From Micromonospora parathelypteridis (lineage in GTDB: Bacteria; Actinomycetota; Actinomycetes; Mycobacteriales; Micromonosporaceae), in NCBI RefSeq assembly GCF_014201145.1, contig NZ_JACHDP010000001.1, forward strand, positions 1,240,001 to 1,304,000: a DNA stretch of 64,000 bases, read 5' to 3'. Below are positions 2,422 to 60,960 of the stretch, in pieces. Position numbers and translations under genes: made by a program. Numbering within the stretch: the stretch's first letter is position 1; each line of letters starts with the position of its first letter. The notes below the pieces were generated by a model that searched no databases, had not been told where the DNA came from, and saw only the letters and a list, made by a program, of their open reading frames with translations.

Positions 2422-2558
2422 GGTGACTGTCGGAGGTCTCTTCCGCCGCCACCCCTCGCGGGGCGGCGACCTACGGGGCCGGGTCGGGCCGCCGTGGTTC
2501 CGGCGATCGACCGTGCTGACGACTCCGTCGCGGGGGAATACTCCCCTCCTCGGTGACC
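2422..2558 (-). promoter_or_regulatory. yybP-ykoY type Mn2+ riboswitch upstream of terC
   Basis: Read on the minus strand, the terC leader has the two conserved blocks of this riboswitch: a 5' GAGGGGAGTA near 2550-2540, and a 3' GGAAGAGACCTCCG near 2442-2429. The flanking GGAGG and CCTCC can close the basal stem, and two GC-rich arms lie between the blocks. These correspond to the internal loops that meet to bind Mn2+ in known members. About 80 nt separate it from the TTG start. That stretch contains a GCCCCC/GGGGGC hairpin (near 2385-2400) that may be the expression platform. Placement directly before a TerC gene is the classic context. Confidence 0.8.
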
Positions 2559-2666
2559 ATTGTTGCCCACCACGCCCCGTGATCACACCCCGGGCAGCCG
2601 GTGGCGCTGGCCACCCGTCAACGGGGAACAACGCACGTGCCACACCCGCTGGGCCGTCCTAGGAGG

Positions 2667-3821
2667 CTAGTGCGAGTCGGGGGCGTCGATCGGGTCGGCG
2701 AGCGACCAACCGGCGGCGAGCAGGTCGTCGCAGGCCCGCACCGCCCGGGCCAGTCGCTCCGCGTGCGACCCGACCAGCTCCACCACCGGCACGCCGCACC
2801 CCGCCAACTCGGCACGGAACCGCTCGGTCATCCAACTCCGCAGATGCTCGCCGTCGCGCAGCCCGTCATCAGCGAAGGGCACATCCCGGTGATCCGTCAG
2901 CAGGTACAGCGCCGGCCGACGGGCCGCCGCCCGCACCTCCGGAGACGCGCTGCCCAGGTAGCGCTCCTCCCACACCGCCGTGGCCCGCGCGTCGGTGTCG
3001 CAGACCAGCAGTGGCCCGCTCGTCCGGGCCGCCGCATCCTCGGCCGCCTGCTGCTCGCGGACCACCGTGCGAAAGTCGTCCCGGTCCCAGGTCACGTCGA
3101 AGACCGTCACCTCCGGTGTGCGCTCGCGCAACCGGGCCAGCTTGCGGGCGGTCAACTCCCGGCCATACTCCGGCACCCACGGCGTGCCGTAGTGCGCCGC
3201 GAGCGCTGCCGCCATCGTGGTGGTGCCGGTCGACTCCGCGCCGACCACCACCACCCGGCGCACGAACCAGGCCCGCACCGGCGGGCTCAACCACCGCCAG
3301 TGACCCGCCGGGTCCGCGCGGACGGCCGTCCCGGACACCGGAACGGTCCGCCGATCCAGATCCACCGACACGGGTACGGCGTCGAAGCGTCGAGCCAACT
3401 CCGCGCCGTACGCCTCCGACGAGAAGACCGCGTCCACCCGCCCCGACCCGACCGCCTCGCGGAACACCGCGCAGTGCGCGTCCCAGACGGCCGGGTCGGC
3501 GTAGTCCACCGGGTGGTCGTCGTACCGGCCGACGAAGCGGACCCACGGGGTGCGCGCATGCGCCTCCCGCAGCCATTCCAGCCGCAGCGTGAGCGGAATG
3601 GACTCCCGCCGCGAGGGGGCCACGACGACGGTGACCGTGGCGCAGCGGGCGGCGGCGGCCTCGATCAGCGCGTGGTGCCCGGCGTGCGGCGGGTAGAACT
3701 TCCCCACCACCATCCCATGGCCGAAGTCCGGGGACCGCGCTGGCTGGCCCGGTGTCGTTGACTGGCCCGGTGTCGTTGGCTGGCGGGGTGTCGGCGGGCG
3801 CCCCGGCGCCCCGGCGGTCAC
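2667..3821 (-). CDS. nadR: NadR-like bifunctional NMN adenylyltransferase / nicotinamide riboside kinase
   Basis: A 384-residue protein for NAD salvage. The nucleotidyltransferase half begins at about residue 33 with GMVVGKFYPPHAGH, which contains the HxGH ATP-binding motif. The C-terminal kinase half has a P-loop-like GAESTGTTT in which the usual Lys is Thr, as in other actinobacterial homologues I recall. GTG at 3821 is chosen because it overlaps the pnuC stop as GTGA. An internal ATG at the GMVVG segment would remove residues (FGH) that align with the family. The first ~32 residues are a Pro/Thr/Gln-rich leader coded by short repeats. It probably adenylates and phosphorylates riboside imported by PnuC. 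Confidence 0.88.
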   Translation of the reverse strand: MTAGAPGRPPTPRQPTTPGQSTTPGQPARSPDFGHGMVVGKFYPPHAGHHALIEAAAARCATVTVVVAPSRRESIPLTLRLEWLREAHARTPWVRFVGRYDDHPVDYADPAVWDAHCAVFREAVGSGRVDAVFSSEAYGAELARRFDAVPVSVDLDRRTVPVSGTAVRADPAGHWRWLSPPVRAWFVRRVVVVGAESTGTTTMAAALAAHYGTPWVPEYGRELTARKLARLRERTPEVTVFDVTWDRDDFRTVVREQQAAEDAAARTSGPLLVCDTDARATAVWEERYLGSASPEVRAAARRPALYLLTDHRDVPFADDGLRDGEHLRSWMTERFRAELAGCGVPVVELVGSHAERLARAVRACDDLLAAGWSLADPIDAPDSH

Positions 3822-54344: not shown

Positions 54345-54608
54345 TCAGTTTCCCAGCGCTCGGACCTTGGCGATCGTCTCCTGAACGTGTTGCTTCGCCG
54401 GGTCCCCACCCTGGGACGCCTGAGCGAGGGCCTGACGATACGCGTCGATCATGCCGATGAGGGGGCCTGCGGCCACGCCCTCCAGAGCCCCGGCGACGAG
54501 CGCCCGTGCCTCGGCTGCGTCCTGGGCCGCCGCTGCGGTCTTGGCCTTCGCTTCGTCGAGCTTCTGCGACGCCGCCGCCAACCGCGCGATGATCTGTGCT
54601 GCGCTCAC
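54345..54608 (-). CDS. DUF6244 family small helical protein
   Basis: An 87-residue, almost entirely helical protein: SAAQIIARLAAASQKLDEAK, then KTAAAAQDAAEARALVAGAL, and a C-terminal helix ending HVQETIAKVRALGN. It matches my recollection of DUF6244 proteins of Micromonosporaceae, which have no known function. Length and helical-hairpin character recall WXG100 proteins, but the central WxG is absent. GTG 54608 has GGGAGG six bases upstream. It is the last gene of the same-strand series with a membrane protein, an FtsK-type ATPase and a receptor-like protein; the gap to the membrane-protein gene is 189 bp. Confidence 0.7.
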   Translation of the reverse strand: MSAAQIIARLAAASQKLDEAKAKTAAAAQDAAEARALVAGALEGVAAGPLIGMIDAYRQALAQASQGGDPAKQHVQETIAKVRALGN

Positions 54609-54797
54609 GCGCGCCCTCCCCTGGTCGACCATCGCCTCCACCGCCGCACCGGCGGAGACCACATGGGAGCGTACGAGATCCGCGCACTGAGCGCGACCGC
54701 CCGCTCGCAGCCGACAAGTCCAAGGTCGACTCGATATCGAGTGGATCATGCCCGGGGCGAGCCCGAGGCAGGTCCGAGGCGGGCTGGGGGCAACCTG

Positions 54798-55613
54798 TCA
54801 GCCGCGCAGGCCGCGGACCATCAGCAGGTAGGCGCAGTAGGCCATCGGCACCAGCAGGAAACAGATCAGGAACCCGAGCGGCAGATAACGCGGCGGGGCC
54901 CCCTCGATCATGGCCGGTCGCCCCCACCGGCCCAGCACCAGGTACCCACCGAAGAACGCCACCGCCGGCAGCCCCGCGCAGATCCACGCGCCGAGGGTGA
55001 AGCCGTCGACCAGGCCGACCCCGGAGGCGAGCACCAGAGCCAGCATCACCACGCCGGCGGCCGCCGCACAGCCGGCGTAGATGGCAACCGACCGAGCCAG
55101 CGGTGACCACGTCGGCAGGAGCACCGGCCGCTGGGCGAGCAGCTCCGCCTGCTGCCCGTGCCGGTCGGCCTCGTCGGCCATCCGCCGGGCGAGCTCCAGC
55201 TCCACCGCCGGGTCGACCGGCACCGCGCGCTGCGCCGGCACCGCGCCCGCCGGGCTCACCGCCGTCGGCAGCGCCAGCCGCGCCTCCCCCGCCGGCACCT
55301 GGGGGTACGCCCCGACCCCCGCCCACCCCGGCGCGCCGGCTGCGCCGGCGGGTCCCCCGTTCCCCGATCCGGGCGCGGTGAAAGAGGGCTCCGCGGCAGC
55401 GGCAGGGGCGGATGCCGGTTGGTGCAGGCCGATCGCTCGACCGAGTTGGTCGAGGCGCTGCCCCTGGATGGTCAACCTCTGCTGCAGGTAGTCGGCGGCG
55501 GCGTGCAGGTCACGGCGGCGCTCGGACTCGGCGGCGGCGTGCTGAACGCCGGCGCGGTGCTGCTCGGCGAGTTGCCGGGCCAGCGCCGCGTACTCCTCGA
55601 AGGACACTGTCAC
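54798..55613 (-). CDS. Coiled-coil membrane protein coupled to the FtsK-like ATPase
   Basis: A 271-residue protein, not assigned to a named family. Residues ~1-60 form an amphipathic helix (EEYAALARQLAEQHRAGVQH; LQQRLTIQGQRLDQLGRAIG). A Pro/Ala/Gly-rich linker spans ~65-125, followed by a second charged helix (LELARRMADEADRHGQQAEL). Three membrane helices lie at ~172-198, 203-228 and ~243-266. The GTG start overlaps the stop of the ATPase gene (GTGA), so the two are made together. The long cytoplasmic helix could dock the ATPase at the membrane; this is inference. Confidence 0.75.
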   Translation of the reverse strand: MTVSFEEYAALARQLAEQHRAGVQHAAAESERRRDLHAAADYLQQRLTIQGQRLDQLGRAIGLHQPASAPAAAAEPSFTAPGSGNGGPAGAAGAPGWAGVGAYPQVPAGEARLALPTAVSPAGAVPAQRAVPVDPAVELELARRMADEADRHGQQAELLAQRPVLLPTWSPLARSVAIYAGCAAAAGVVMLALVLASGVGLVDGFTLGAWICAGLPAVAFFGGYLVLGRWGRPAMIEGAPPRYLPLGFLICFLLVPMAYCAYLLMVRGLRG

Positions 55614-58165
55614 CGCTCCAAGTCCGGCTCGTGCCCGTCGCCGACGAACGGGACGATCAGCCGGGTGCGCTGGTCGTGCCGGTCGACCAGCAGCGCCCGG
55701 TCGGCGCGGGGCGTGTAGGCCAGGTCGTGCATCCCGAGGTGCAGGGCCAGCTCGGACCCGGGCACGTTGAGCGCCACCAGGCAGGCGACGTCGTCACGGT
55801 TCTGGGTGCCGCCGAGGTCGTCGGCGAGCCGCCGCAACCCACGCCACCAACCGAGCAGGTGCACCCCTTGCCCGGGCCCCTGGCGCAGGAGTGCGCGCAG
55901 GTCGTCCAGGCCGGAGCGGAACGTGCTCGGGTCGGCGGCCCCGAGGACCGGCGCGGCGGCGTCCATGCCGAACACCACCAGGTATTCGCGGCCGGTGGGC
56001 TCGGCGGCCAGCGTGGCGATGCGCTCGCGCAGCCCGGCCGCGTCGAGGCGCCGCACCGGGTGACCGGCGGCCCGCAGGACGGTTTCGGTGTCGTCGGCGA
56101 CCGGGCCGGCGGCGGTGACCAGGGAGGCAAGCGCGAACCGGGCATCACCAGGGGTGTGCTGGCGGGCCAGGCTCAGCGTCGCGGCGCGCAGCACGTCCGC
56201 GCCGGTCGGTGCGGTGCCCACCACGGCGAGGTGCCGGCCGGGGGTGGTGTCCATCAGGAACAGCGCGGTGGTGCCGTGCACGTCGACCGTCCGGCCGACC
56301 AGGGCCATCGGGCGTCGGCCACCGGGGCGCAGCCCGGCGAAGGTGGGGTCGTCCTCGACCCGCGCGGCCTCGTACCCCTTGAAGACCGCCGGTGCCCGCG
56401 AGCCCGGCGGGCGGGCCTGCCACAGCTCGTGGCGCAGTGCGGCGAGGTCCGCCGCGGCGGCATGCGCGTCGGGGAAGCGCAGCACGGTGTCGGCGCCGAC
56501 CGCACCGGCGGCGGTGTTGACCACGGCCGAGCCGATCGGCAGGGCCGCGGCGGCGTCGTTGAGCTGGTCGAGCACCCCGCCACCGCCGGGCAGCGCCACC
56601 CGTAGCGCGAACTGCCCGAAGATCGCCTCGGCCCGCCCGTAGAGGGCCTCGATGCCGGTCATGCTCTGGCTGGCCAGTACCAGGTGGATGCCGTACGAGC
56701 GGCCCTTGCGGGCCAACTCCTCCAGCAGGTCGACGGACTCGCGGGCCAGCGCGTCGTTGCCGGCGAGCAGCACCTGGAACTCGTCGATGACCGCCACGAT
56801 GCGCGGCAGCGGGTTGTCGCGGGGCAGGTCGGCGAGTTTGGTGACGCCGTGCCGCTTCAGGGCGGTGGCCCGGCGTTGCGCCTCCCGGCGAAGCTCGCGC
56901 AGCACGGCGAGCCCGTACTCGCGGTCGGACTCGATGCCGACGGCACGGGCGTGCGGCAACCACGACGGGTCCCGCCCGGTGGGCACGAACTCGGTGAAGC
57001 TCACGCCCTCCTTGAAGTCGAGCAGGTAGAGCTGCAGCTCGGCCGGGGAGTAGCGTGCGGCCAACCCGTAGAGGACGTCGAGGAGGAACACCGTCTTGCC
57101 GGCGCCGGTGCGCCCACCGACCAGCCAGTGCGGGGTGGCGTCGTCGAAGGCGAGCGTCAACGCATCGTCGAAGGCGCCGGTCAGCGGGGTGCCGCCGGCC
57201 CGACCGATCACCGTCCGCAGGCCGTTGCCGGCGGACTCGACCCAGCGCCGCTCGGGCAGCAGGTCGGTGAAGGGCAGCGCGTCGGCGCGGCGGGCGGCGG
57301 CGCCCAGGTGCTCGGCGAGCGCGCGTACCGAGGCGGGCGGCGGGTCGCCGTCGAGCAGGACGGGTGCGGCGAGGCCGGTGCCGTCGGCGCTGAACGGGGT
57401 GCCGGGTGGGTCGCCGACGTACGCGTACCCCTGGTTGAGCCGGACCGCGGTGGTGCCGCCCAGCGTCGTCGCGGTCTCTCCGGGCTGCCGCGACGGGTGG
57501 CCGGCGAGCAGCACGCAGACGGCGGCGGCCGGGCCGGCGTGGGTGAGCGCGGCGAGCCGGGCCAGCTCGCGCGGCGGTGGCGCGGCGGTGGCGACCACCA
57601 CCAGCAGGTGCCGGGCGGCGGGCTGGGCGTGCTGCGCGGCGCGGGCGTGCTGCTCGGCGGCGTCCAGCAGCGCGGCCACCTCGGCCTCGCCGGTGGCCGG
57701 CGGGTCGAGCACCCCCGCGTCGAGCAGGGGGCGCAACGGGCCGAAGGTGGCGCCCACGGCGGCGGTGTCGATGCCGGCGACCCGGACCTGCCCGGGCGGT
57801 GCGGTGGCGACCAGCCGCAGCACCAGCGCCCGCAACAGCCCGGCGACCCGCGGGTCGCGGACATCGGCGTCCAGGGCGAGGTGGTGGCCGCCGCCGAGCG
57901 GGACCAGCACCGGGAAGCCGCCGTCCGAGGTGGACGCCTCGCCGATCCGCACCGCGGCCGGCTCGTCGGTCAGTGGCGTGGCGTTCGGGGTGGGAGTGGC
58001 CAGGGCGCCGCCGAGGCGGGCGAGGCGGGCCACCAACTCCTCGGCGCCGGCCGGCGCGACGGCAACCGGTGCCGTGCCGAGCGCGCTCCGGGCGGTGTCC
58101 AGGTGCGCCCGGGCCGCCCGGTGGGAGGCGACCGCCTGCCGGTACGACGACGCGAGCCTGCTCAA
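55610..58165 (-). CDS. FtsK/SpoIIIE-type multi-domain ATPase without membrane helices
   Basis: An 851-residue soluble protein with an N-terminal coiled segment (~1-50). A first degenerate ATPase-like domain spans ~80-300 (FPVLVPLGGGHHLALDADV, FGPLRPLL; no P-loop). A complete motor domain spans ~320-560: Walker A GGRTGAGKT at ~350-358, LYLLDFKEGVSF, Walker B RIVAVIDEF at ~455-463, sensor IHLVLASQS. A third domain (~600-851) has a broken P-loop GTAPTGAD. Three stacked domains with one or more dead sites recall EccC of type VII secretion, but there are no transmembrane helices. The coupled downstream membrane protein may supply the anchor. Substrate (DNA or protein) unknown. Confidence 0.85.
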   Translation of the reverse strand: MSRLASSYRQAVASHRAARAHLDTARSALGTAPVAVAPAGAEELVARLARLGGALATPTPNATPLTDEPAAVRIGEASTSDGGFPVLVPLGGGHHLALDADVRDPRVAGLLRALVLRLVATAPPGQVRVAGIDTAAVGATFGPLRPLLDAGVLDPPATGEAEVAALLDAAEQHARAAQHAQPAARHLLVVVATAAPPPRELARLAALTHAGPAAAVCVLLAGHPSRQPGETATTLGGTTAVRLNQGYAYVGDPPGTPFSADGTGLAAPVLLDGDPPPASVRALAEHLGAAARRADALPFTDLLPERRWVESAGNGLRTVIGRAGGTPLTGAFDDALTLAFDDATPHWLVGGRTGAGKTVFLLDVLYGLAARYSPAELQLYLLDFKEGVSFTEFVPTGRDPSWLPHARAVGIESDREYGLAVLRELRREAQRRATALKRHGVTKLADLPRDNPLPRIVAVIDEFQVLLAGNDALARESVDLLEELARKGRSYGIHLVLASQSMTGIEALYGRAEAIFGQFALRVALPGGGGVLDQLNDAAAALPIGSAVVNTAAGAVGADTVLRFPDAHAAAADLAALRHELWQARPPGSRAPAVFKGYEAARVEDDPTFAGLRPGGRRPMALVGRTVDVHGTTALFLMDTTPGRHLAVVGTAPTGADVLRAATLSLARQHTPGDARFALASLVTAAGPVADDTETVLRAAGHPVRRLDAAGLRERIATLAAEPTGREYLVVFGMDAAAPVLGAADPSTFRSGLDDLRALLRQGPGQGVHLLGWWRGLRRLADDLGGTQNRDDVACLVALNVPGSELALHLGMHDLAYTPRADRALLVDRHDQRTRLIVPFVGDGHEPDLER

Positions 58166-58263
58166 CCTCTGCCCCCAACGCCAACGGCCGCCTGGTCCCA
58201 GGAACCCTAACGGACACCGGTGGCACCCGGACAGTCCTGCGAGGACGTGTCACGCCGGGCCTG

Positions 58264-60960
58264 TCACGCCGGGCCGCAGGCCGCCGGGCCGGACGCGTCG
58301 GCCACCCCGCAGCGGAACACCTCCACCGGCGCCGTCGCCACGTCGGGCACCTGCTCCACCCGCATCAGGGCCAGCCGCTTGTCGACCGGTTCACCCGAGT
58401 CGGGGGTGAACCGGATCAGCCCGGCCACCCCCGGGTAGCCCTGGCCGGCGTTCTGCCGGAGCACCTCCGCGTGCACACCGACCGGGTTGACCGAGGTCGG
58501 CTCCCAGCGTTGACGTGGATCGGCGTGGTGCAGCCGGGCGGCGAGGCTCTCCACCGCCCGGATCAGCATCATCGCCGCGTCGTAGGCGAGGCTGACCCGC
58601 TCGCCGACCTGGTACCCGGTGTCCGGACGGCAGCGCGGCGGGTCGAGCAGGTCGTCGGCCTGGATCCAGGACAGGAAGCTGGCCCGGGCGTCGTCGCGCC
58701 GGTCCTGGGCGGCCCGCAGCGCGGCGCAGGTGGCCAGGGCGGCCTTGGAGACGTACGTGACCGGCAGGTTGCCGGGCGCGGCGGCGCGCAGCCCAGGATT
58801 GGCCATGTAGCGGTTCGCCGAGTCGTCGGCGACCAGGTGCCGGGGCGGGTCGGCGCCGCACTCGCGCAGCGCCCGCAGGAAACCGTCGAACTCCGACCAC
58901 CGACCCGCGTAGAAGAGCAGACCGGGGTACCCGCACTCGCCGGTCAGGCGCTGACCGGTGCGCCACTCGTCGAGGCGCGTGATCCGGGCGCCGAACCGCT
59001 GTCGGAGCCCTTCGACGAGGGTGTTCACGTAGAGGTCCTCGGTGAGTGAGCTGCCCTCCAGTGTCGTGTAGAAGACGTGCGCGTCGTTGACCTTCAACAC
59101 CTGCTGGGCGTACGCGTCGACCATCTCGACCTGATCCGCGTTGGGCGCGGAGATCTGCAGGTAGAGGCGGGAGTTGGCGTCCATCCGGTCGGCGGAGAGC
59201 GTGGGCGCCAGCACCGGCAGACCGACCCGGTTCAACTCGCGCAGCGCTCGGGCGGTGCTGGTCCGGCTCTCCACCAACCCGACGACCCCGAGCACCGTCG
59301 GATCGTCCCGGGCCAGCTCGGCCAGCATCGCCACGGCCCGGTCGGCGTAGATCATCTGTCGGCCACCGTTGGCCACCACGATCCGCAGCAGCGCGGCGCC
59401 GTCGGCCCCGGCCGACTCCTTCAGCAGCGCGTACTGCGCGGTCGCCATGCCCTCGAGCTCCTCCCGCTCGGAGACGTACGACTCCTCGTCGGCACGGGTC
59501 CGGTTACCGGTCAGGGTGCCCAGGTAGACCAGGGTGAGGAAGGGCCGGCGCCGGTCGCTGCGCTGCCAGACCTCCTCGGCAGCCCGGTTCTGCGCGAAGA
59601 TGCGCTGCTGGATGGTCCGCAGCCGCTCCTGGCCGGGGTCGTTGTTGAACACCTGCGCGGCGCTGTCGCTGTAGCCGACACATTCACCGCTGCCGACCAC
59701 CTCGACCGAGACCTGCCCGCCGGTCAGCGAGGGATGGCAGCCCGGCGACCACCGGCTGCCCACCCACGCGCCCGCCGAGACCAGCACCACCAGGCAGAGC
59801 GCCGCCGGCAGGAAACGCCGCGACCACCAGGGCGGGTCGGGCGCGGAGAACGGCCGGATGCCGCCCCGGGAGGGTGGGCCGGTGTCGGTGTCGTCGGGCC
59901 GCAGCGCCACGAGCCAGGCGGCCGGGCGGCGCAGCCGCCGCATCTCCGGCAGCGCCTCGGCCCACTCGTCGTACGCCTCGTCGGCCTCCGTCAACGGGTG
60001 CGGCTCCGGCAGCTCCGGCGGAGGTTGCCCGCCGGACGCGACGATGAGCAGCGGGTCGTTACGGCCGGTCTCGGTGCGGACGTCACCGATCAGGCGGATC
60101 AGTTCCCCGCCGACGTTGCCGGGGGCGACGTGATCGAGCAGCAGCGCCGGGTACGCGGTGCGCCGCCAGTCCGACGGGCGCCACGGCCGACGCCGGTACG
60201 CCTGCCGCAGGTCCTCCAGGAACGCGTGCAGCAGCAGCTTGTTGACCTGGTCGGGTTGCTCGCCGTCGCGCCACCCCGCGGTGAGGCGCTCGGCGAAGCC
60301 GAGGAAGGTGACCGACTGCCGGGGCGCCAGATACTGCTGGCGCATGAACCAGTTGTAGTGCCGCCCGAGGACCGGCACCCGACCGGAGACAGCGGCCCGG
60401 AAGACGACGCCGGGCACGGCGCGACGGACCAGCCAGAGCAGCACCTGCGAGGCGATGCTGACCGCGTCGCCACCGGAGGGCAACGCCTCGGGCGTACGCG
60501 GGCCCCGGCGGTCGCGTAGCCGGCGTACCAGGGCCGAACGGCCGTCGTCGGCGTCGACGCCGAAGCTGAGGCTCTGGTGCATCAGCCAGTCGGCGAGCGG
60601 ATAGTGCCGGAAACGCAGCCGGGCGGCGCCGAACGCCTCCAGCGAGAGCTGCCGGTGCAGCTCGCGCAGCAGCGCCGACACGTCGCCGGCGCCCGGCGGC
60701 GCGTCGGCGTCCAGTACGGCGTGCGGCACCCGCCGCCGGGGGCCCTGGCTGAGGAATCGGCGCAGCGGCACCATCAGGTCCGAGGTGTCGGAGCGGACCA
60801 GCCAGAGCAGCGGCAGTCTCCGGTCACCTCGACGGGGTCGCCGCAGCAGCCGCGCGAGCAGCGCGAAGAACTCCAACCCGCCGGCCGGCAGGCGGTCCCG
60901 TCCTCCGGCGGACTGCCGCTGGCCGATCAACTCGCGCTTGGGCACCTCCGAACGCCGCAC
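58264..60960 (-). CDS. Receptor-like membrane protein: degenerate NTPase-like domain, one helix, periplasmic-binding-protein sensor
   Basis: An 898-residue protein. Residues ~45-310 look like a P-loop NTPase without its P-loop: strand PLLWLVRSDTSDLMVPLRRF where Walker A would be, and ALLLDHVAPGNVGGELIRLI then DPLLIVASGG resembling Walker B and sensor strands. A single membrane helix is at ~382-401. The outer part (~410-898) is a type I periplasmic-binding-protein fold like LivJ (FLTLVYLGTLTG; VLGVVGLVESRTSTARALRE; LPVLAPTLSADRMD). GTG 60960 has GGAGG six bases upstream. It could sense an extracellular small molecule and signal to the ATPase encoded 98 bp downstream; this is inference. Confidence 0.75.
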   Translation of the reverse strand: MRRSEVPKRELIGQRQSAGGRDRLPAGGLEFFALLARLLRRPRRGDRRLPLLWLVRSDTSDLMVPLRRFLSQGPRRRVPHAVLDADAPPGAGDVSALLRELHRQLSLEAFGAARLRFRHYPLADWLMHQSLSFGVDADDGRSALVRRLRDRRGPRTPEALPSGGDAVSIASQVLLWLVRRAVPGVVFRAAVSGRVPVLGRHYNWFMRQQYLAPRQSVTFLGFAERLTAGWRDGEQPDQVNKLLLHAFLEDLRQAYRRRPWRPSDWRRTAYPALLLDHVAPGNVGGELIRLIGDVRTETGRNDPLLIVASGGQPPPELPEPHPLTEADEAYDEWAEALPEMRRLRRPAAWLVALRPDDTDTGPPSRGGIRPFSAPDPPWWSRRFLPAALCLVVLVSAGAWVGSRWSPGCHPSLTGGQVSVEVVGSGECVGYSDSAAQVFNNDPGQERLRTIQQRIFAQNRAAEEVWQRSDRRRPFLTLVYLGTLTGNRTRADEESYVSEREELEGMATAQYALLKESAGADGAALLRIVVANGGRQMIYADRAVAMLAELARDDPTVLGVVGLVESRTSTARALRELNRVGLPVLAPTLSADRMDANSRLYLQISAPNADQVEMVDAYAQQVLKVNDAHVFYTTLEGSSLTEDLYVNTLVEGLRQRFGARITRLDEWRTGQRLTGECGYPGLLFYAGRWSEFDGFLRALRECGADPPRHLVADDSANRYMANPGLRAAAPGNLPVTYVSKAALATCAALRAAQDRRDDARASFLSWIQADDLLDPPRCRPDTGYQVGERVSLAYDAAMMLIRAVESLAARLHHADPRQRWEPTSVNPVGVHAEVLRQNAGQGYPGVAGLIRFTPDSGEPVDKRLALMRVEQVPDVATAPVEVFRCGVADASGPAACGPA

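Follow-up and report, generated by a model that had tools for sequence, protein, structure and literature searches.

The locus described here lies in a window of 64,000 nt from the one-contig, 7.01-Mb genome of Micromonospora parathelypteridis. Four genes occupy its minus strand, as the first-pass annotation had reported. They code for a receptor-like protein, an FtsK/SpoIIIE-type ATPase, a membrane protein that we term the membrane partner, and a small helical protein of the DUF6244 family, of which a single copy was found in this genome (Table 1). The membrane partner is helical in its N-terminal part and proline-rich in the middle, and it carries three hydrophobic regions at its C-terminal end. 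The receptor-like protein consists of an NTPase-like N-terminal half that lacks a P-loop, a single membrane helix and a LivJ/LivK-like sensor.

Table 1. Features of the locus, in window positions unless residues are given.
Feature	Position	Strand	Remarks
DUF6244 gene	54345..54608	(-)	87 aa, small, helical; start at 54608; PF19757 E 9.7e-28; alignment of 14 relatives
Slippery heptamer G GGA AAC	54348..54354	(-)	abuts the TGA stop of DUF6244
Membrane partner	54798..55613	(-)	271 aa
FtsK/SpoIIIE-type ATPase	55610..58165	(-)	851 aa, EccC/EssC-like
RecA-like domains of the ATPase (three)	residues ~70-295, 316-583, 593-840
Walker B, middle domain, VAVIDE	56780..56797	(-)	residues 457-462
Walker A, middle domain, GRTGAGKT	57092..57115	(-)	residues 351-358
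Receptor-like gene	58264..60960	(-)	898 aa, judged to lie outside the module

Walker motifs of the ATPase are intact only in the middle domain, in agreement with the earlier description of one intact and two dead ATPase domains, and the protein has no clear membrane segment, a single weak stretch at residues 204-222 scoring 1.71. Its top multi-domain structural matches are EccC/EssC structures, where the match spans 451-699 residues (4nh0, 4n1a, 4lya and 5fv0), compared with 266-270 residues for FtsK proper, and the sequence matches three EccC domains of 4nh0. A known defence system was also considered and rejected: in PADLOC, the ATPase matches SspH (7.5e-20), mad8 (2.5e-15) and, more weakly, HerA, in each case over its middle domain only, and the receptor, the membrane protein and DUF6244 have no PADLOC match.

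At least 405 stretches encoding an ATPase relative were found in a scan of species genomes, and of these we kept the best 80 loci. The closest of these is from Micromonospora arborensis (96% in the top segment). According to the gene calls, 74 of the best 80 loci (of at least 405) have the membrane protein next after the ATPase, and in the other six the fetched stretch ends after the ATPase. Thus, the part of the original one-unit proposal that concerns the ATPase and the membrane protein stands, the two being adjacent in all 74 uncut loci, and their genes overlap by 4 bp in 26 of these. A tblastn search with the window membrane protein matched 68 of the 80 loci, a lower count because this protein is poorly conserved. 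The membrane family is present in 143 of 150 genomes of Micromonosporaceae, and when the class was scanned its profile matched 4 of 394 genomes, of which three belong to Micromonospora. DUF6244 lies downstream of the pair on the same strand in 36 of the best 80 loci (of at least 405); among the 31 DUF6244 genes called there, 20 are directly adjacent and 11 are separated from the pair by intervening genes. Several loci of the Glycomyces type (L081-L088) have a further membrane protein after the pair, and the one that was scanned contains a weak DivIVA-like segment (E 0.018).

Two more relatives of the ATPase are encoded in the same genome, 41% (module B) and 39% (module C) identical over 831-842 residues, and each is followed by a membrane-type protein. 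Module B (L101 7832-11141, about C1:2861831-2865140) is located near folE and ftsH. A search of its ATPase for Walker A and B motifs gave no match, and therefore the pair seems to be retained with a dead motor. In module C (L103 3239-11047, about C1:6608238-6616046), a two-helix 86-aa protein and a 345-aa protein precede the ATPase and its membrane-type protein, after which come a CHAT protease (E 8.9e-20) and a Trypco2 protein (E 6.4e-19). This module looks like a conflict or defence operon. Among 20 fetched loci with relatives of the module C ATPase outside the family, a two-helix protein of 85-87 aa is encoded behind the ATPase in 13, and in 12 of those 13 the gene before it was called as a protein that contains a stretch of strong hydrophobicity. 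The remaining loci comprise four with longer helical proteins, one with an 88-aa protein whose WXG100 match (E 1.6e-5) narrowly misses the cut-off, one that is cut and one without a full ATPase. Of the membrane-type proteins at these loci, a single one matched the profile of the membrane partner family (L142, E 0.0004). In an alignment of 13 two-helix proteins from family and non-family loci (A6), a Y and an L near the C-terminal end are kept at 90% or more. Searches of these proteins gave only matches below the cut-off for DUF6244 (5 of 13, best E 0.035) and WXG100 (2 of 13, best 0.013), and profile comparisons with the two families returned low probabilities (42%, 33% and 45%). By their sequences they are not recognisably members of either family.

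DUF6244 itself (PF19757) was found in 170 of 354 genomes of Micromonosporaceae, in 165 of them over the cut-off, and only 2 of 384 genomes of the class, both Micromonospora, gave a match over the cut-off. Identity of DUF6244 with WXG100 is not supported, there being no Pfam match and a profile-comparison probability below 3%. Within the genus Micromonospora the association of DUF6244 with the ATPase and membrane genes, part of the unit proposed by the first-pass annotation, was upheld, whereas outside the genus most DUF6244 genes are located elsewhere; most genes that join DUF6244 to a toxin likewise do not adjoin the ATPase-membrane pair.

These toxins came to light in 20 hand-picked DUF6244 neighbourhoods (L151-L170), where a second reading frame, offset by -1, often continues past the end of the DUF6244 gene. 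Scans of ten such -1 frames revealed CdiA_C domains in six, DddA-like domains in two and a WHH/colicin DNase in one; put differently, toxin families were matched in one scan in eight of nine heptamer genes (see below) plus L161, and not in the frame at L169. L154, L164, L166 and L167 are among the examples in the 20 neighbourhoods that show no toxin. CdiA_C follows DUF6244 at several other loci, and a conserved family without a Pfam name adjoins several of the CdiA_C genes. Two loci from a genus other than Micromonospora are informative. At L168, the ATPase (score 1081) and membrane gene (E 3e-43) are divergent from a 172-aa DUF6244 gene (E 1.8e-14), which is followed by the WHH/colicin-DNase domain in the -1 frame and then by SUKH-1 (E 1.7e-19). 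At L169, the pair is again divergent from DUF6244. About 2.3 kb past DUF6244 (2432-3406), a natural in-frame fusion is encoded in which a second DUF6244 domain is linked through a glycine-rich stretch to a C-terminal domain that has no Pfam name; SUKH-1 genes are located beside it. As a separate observation, a 608-aa protein encoded downstream of DUF6244 at L159 (3536-5362) starts like a WXG100 protein and carries RTX repeats as well as an effector domain of the Peptidase_M91 family.

The likeness of the ATPase to type VII motors, together with the DUF6244 toxins of relatives, favours protein export among the roles suggested originally for an FtsK-type motor, and the picture of a membrane-associated motor that has DUF6244 and a membrane protein of its own as partners is likewise supported. 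Given that the pair occurs in 143 of 150 family genomes and DUF6244 in only 36 of 150, either there has to be a further substrate for the pair, or DUF6244 toxins leave by a different route, such as ESX. In the latter case, DUF6244 and its toxins would leave the cell through an ordinary ESX type VII system, the pair would work elsewhere (for example, at the cell envelope or septum), and their adjacency would be historical. The near-universal presence of the pair, which DUF6244 does not share, is consistent with this explanation, as are the two ESX-type EccC loci that this genome also carries and the Glycomyces arrangement, in which the pair precedes the membrane protein with the weak DivIVA-like segment rather than DUF6244. 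However, the recurrence of the pair-DUF6244 neighbourhood in 36 of the best 80 loci (of at least 405), its divergent form at L168 and L169 in another genus, and the EccC-like architecture of the ATPase all argue against it, and we consider the ESX route unlikely. Export of DUF6244 by its own neighbouring pair is the reading we carry forward.

Inspection of the 3' ends of DUF6244 genes suggests how carrier and toxin might be joined. The sequence G GGA AAC occurs directly before the TGA or TAG stop codon, and the toxin is encoded in the open -1 frame. We assembled 50 distinct DUF6244 genes (L180 was dropped as the same gene as L151), which are neither random nor independent because L171-L200 are best-scoring loci and L151-L170 were picked by hand. 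The heptamer G GGA AAC/T is found in the right phase in 39 of the 50, and in 38 of the 41 genes with at least 90 codons in the -1 frame, the exceptions being L151, L161 and L166. Frames of at least 90 codons in the +1 register occur in 13 of the 50 genes, and therefore length by itself is nothing unusual in DNA this rich in GC. GGA accounts for only 63 of 767 other glycine codons in the DUF6244 gene set and for 14 of 440 in eight window genes. Such a heptamer before a stop codon is apparently a -1 frameshift signal of the classical kind, through which one gene would be translated into free DUF6244 as well as a DUF6244-toxin fusion.

The heptamer is mostly followed by a putative stem-loop. An alignment of 33 of the 39 heptamer genes (A8) left out L155, L168 and L169, which have other stems, L177, which is cut, and the near-duplicates L190 and L200. 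In these 33 sequences, pairing holds in 95% of 363 cells versus 19-59% when the structure is slid, for a structure chosen after the sequences had been seen, whose covariation is not clearly above that of shuffles and whose folding energies in several genes are unexceptional against the same locus. When 354 genomes were searched with a covariance model of the element, 93 matches had E values up to 2.5e-7, and 89 of the 93 fall where a listed DUF6244 match ends, a coincidence that is partly by construction because the model was built from 33 of the same genes.

It is also conceivable that the toxins are encoded by overlapping genes that initiate independently, and that no frameshift product is made. 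The weak covariation of the stem would accord with this, as would the ATG, GTG or TTG codons present within the first 45 codons of the -1 frame in 14 of the 39 heptamer genes; the remaining 25 contain no such start. Furthermore, the codon fixed at the site, GGA, is a rare one, many rows maintain a linker (for example, LTGAGG) in the -1 frame from the slip site onward, and stems of differing sequence lie about 5-6 nt past the heptamer in L153-type genes, L155 and L168. L161 has lost its stop and nevertheless has GGGAAA at the site, and one DUF6244 fusion is in frame. For these reasons, we regard independent initiation as quite improbable and continue to favour -1 frameshifting.

The DUF6244 copy in the window differs from those described above. 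Its -1 frame is open for 25 codons only, a polymorphic-toxin domain and an immunity gene are absent from the window, unlike in relatives, there is no strong stem after the heptamer, and the match to the element model is weak (E 0.098). A complete frameshift signal is thus rejected for this copy, where the heptamer alone remains. Among 32 short DUF6244 genes of Micromonospora, the heptamer is present in 10, the window copy included, and is followed in frequency by the ending GGGCAAC, with 9 of 32. Four genes (L011, L018, L029 and L034) retain a stem-like repeat and have 64-120 codons in the -1 frame. The mean column identity of DUF6244 is 91% across 14 genes, and we take the copy in the window to be a cassette that is free of toxin or has decayed, and whose carrier is conserved.

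The receptor-like gene was previously placed in one unit with the other three, and this assignment did not survive examination of the neighbourhoods. It was called in 21 of the best 80 loci (of at least 405), with fragments in two further loci; the 59 without a called receptor are an upper figure because some loci are cut. Where called, it is directly upstream of the ATPase in 14 loci, behind a small same-strand ORF in one and behind opposite-strand genes in six, and its relatives extend to proteins of Streptomyces and Pseudonocardiaceae. We therefore consider the gene a neighbour rather than a member, and reject its membership in the unit on the basis of the best 80 loci. The motif GxxxxGK[ST] occurs in the first half of none of 62 aligned receptors, the sensor has a LivJ/LivK-like type I periplasmic-binding fold, and a structure search with the whole protein returned a list filled by the sensor domain. 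The protein looks like the product of a separate membrane sensor gene that is upstream in some species. Action of all four genes together, with a ligand-sensing receptor gating the motor, is very improbable: a shared strand, a 98-bp receptor-ATPase gap in the window and the 14 directly upstream receptors are outweighed by the uncalled receptors, by the opposite-strand genes in 6 of 21 cases, and by receptor relatives in Streptomyces and Pseudonocardiaceae, set against a membrane partner profile that matched so few genomes of the class. With the receptor outside the unit, the description of the motor as 'ligand-gated' is unsupported. By eye, two loci (L009 and L014) contain an inserted pair between the membrane protein and DUF6244, one gene for a secreted-binding-protein-like protein and one for a NACHT-like NTPase with an intact P-loop, which recalls the receptor split in two.

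With moderate confidence, we propose that the ATPase, the membrane protein and DUF6244 constitute a minimal type VII-like export module with its carrier, that the toxins of relatives are produced by -1 frameshifting, and that the receptor is separate. The dead-active-dead ATPase would resemble a shortened EccC, held at the membrane by a partner that supplies the helices EccC itself carries. From its genomic context, the small helical DUF6244 protein would be the substrate or carrier. In relatives, a single gene would give rise to free DUF6244 and, through a -1 slip at G GGA AAC before the stop, to a DUF6244-toxin protein; the strain examined here may have lost its toxin or never acquired one. 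A broader formulation, that DUF6244 founds an undescribed form of toxin delivery in Micromonosporaceae, with the ratio of carrier to carrier-toxin set by -1 frameshifting and an exporter made of a dedicated three-domain ATPase and a separate membrane protein without classical ESX components, is offered more tentatively, its chances being somewhat short of even.

Should these proposals hold, DUF6244, a family of unknown function, gains a testable role. The data suggest that Micromonosporaceae have an exporter of type VII-like character but simpler build, and that ribosomal frameshifting may set the dose of a toxin, one message serving for both carrier and carrier-toxin. No mention of DUF6244 was found in the literature searched. 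Papers that combine polymorphic toxins with frameshifting or slippery sites, as far as their titles and the opening of their abstracts indicate, concern other subjects, and among the matches listed for frameshifting together with type VII systems none contains 'ribosomal frameshifting' or 'slippery'.

The module shares several characteristics with established systems. Like type VII systems (ESX/T7SSa and T7SSb), it has an ATPase with tandem FtsK/SpoIIIE-type domains of the EccC/EssC type and a small helical partner protein, and toxins of relatives are attached to the same carrier family, DUF6244. However, EccC has membrane helices of its own, whereas the window ATPase lacks these and has a separate membrane partner instead; DUF6244 has no WXG100 match; and a Pfam scan of the eight proteins at 48-63 kb of the window found no EccB, EccD, EccE or mycosin. 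Zhang et al. (2012, PMC3482391) describe 'Solo WXG' systems from other lineages, termed mobile, in which a YueA-like ATPase has three FtsK/HerA domains with only the middle one active. The combination of a dead-active-dead ATPase and a small helical protein is the same as in the window module, whereas here the pair is chromosomal, is present in 143 of 150 family genomes and is partnered by DUF6244 rather than a WXG protein. As in polymorphic toxin systems of the WXG/LXG type, the relatives combine a constant N-terminal domain, here DUF6244, with varying toxins and SUKH-type immunity genes, but their carrier is DUF6244, and most of the toxins lie past a slippery stop, in the -1 frame. Finally, bacterial signals for programmed -1 frameshifting, such as those of dnaX and the phage tail G/GT genes, comprise an X XXY YYZ heptamer, a short spacer and a stem-loop. 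The DUF6244 genes of relatives share the heptamer and have a putative stem-loop a short distance after it, and differ in that the site is located at the junction between carrier and toxin.
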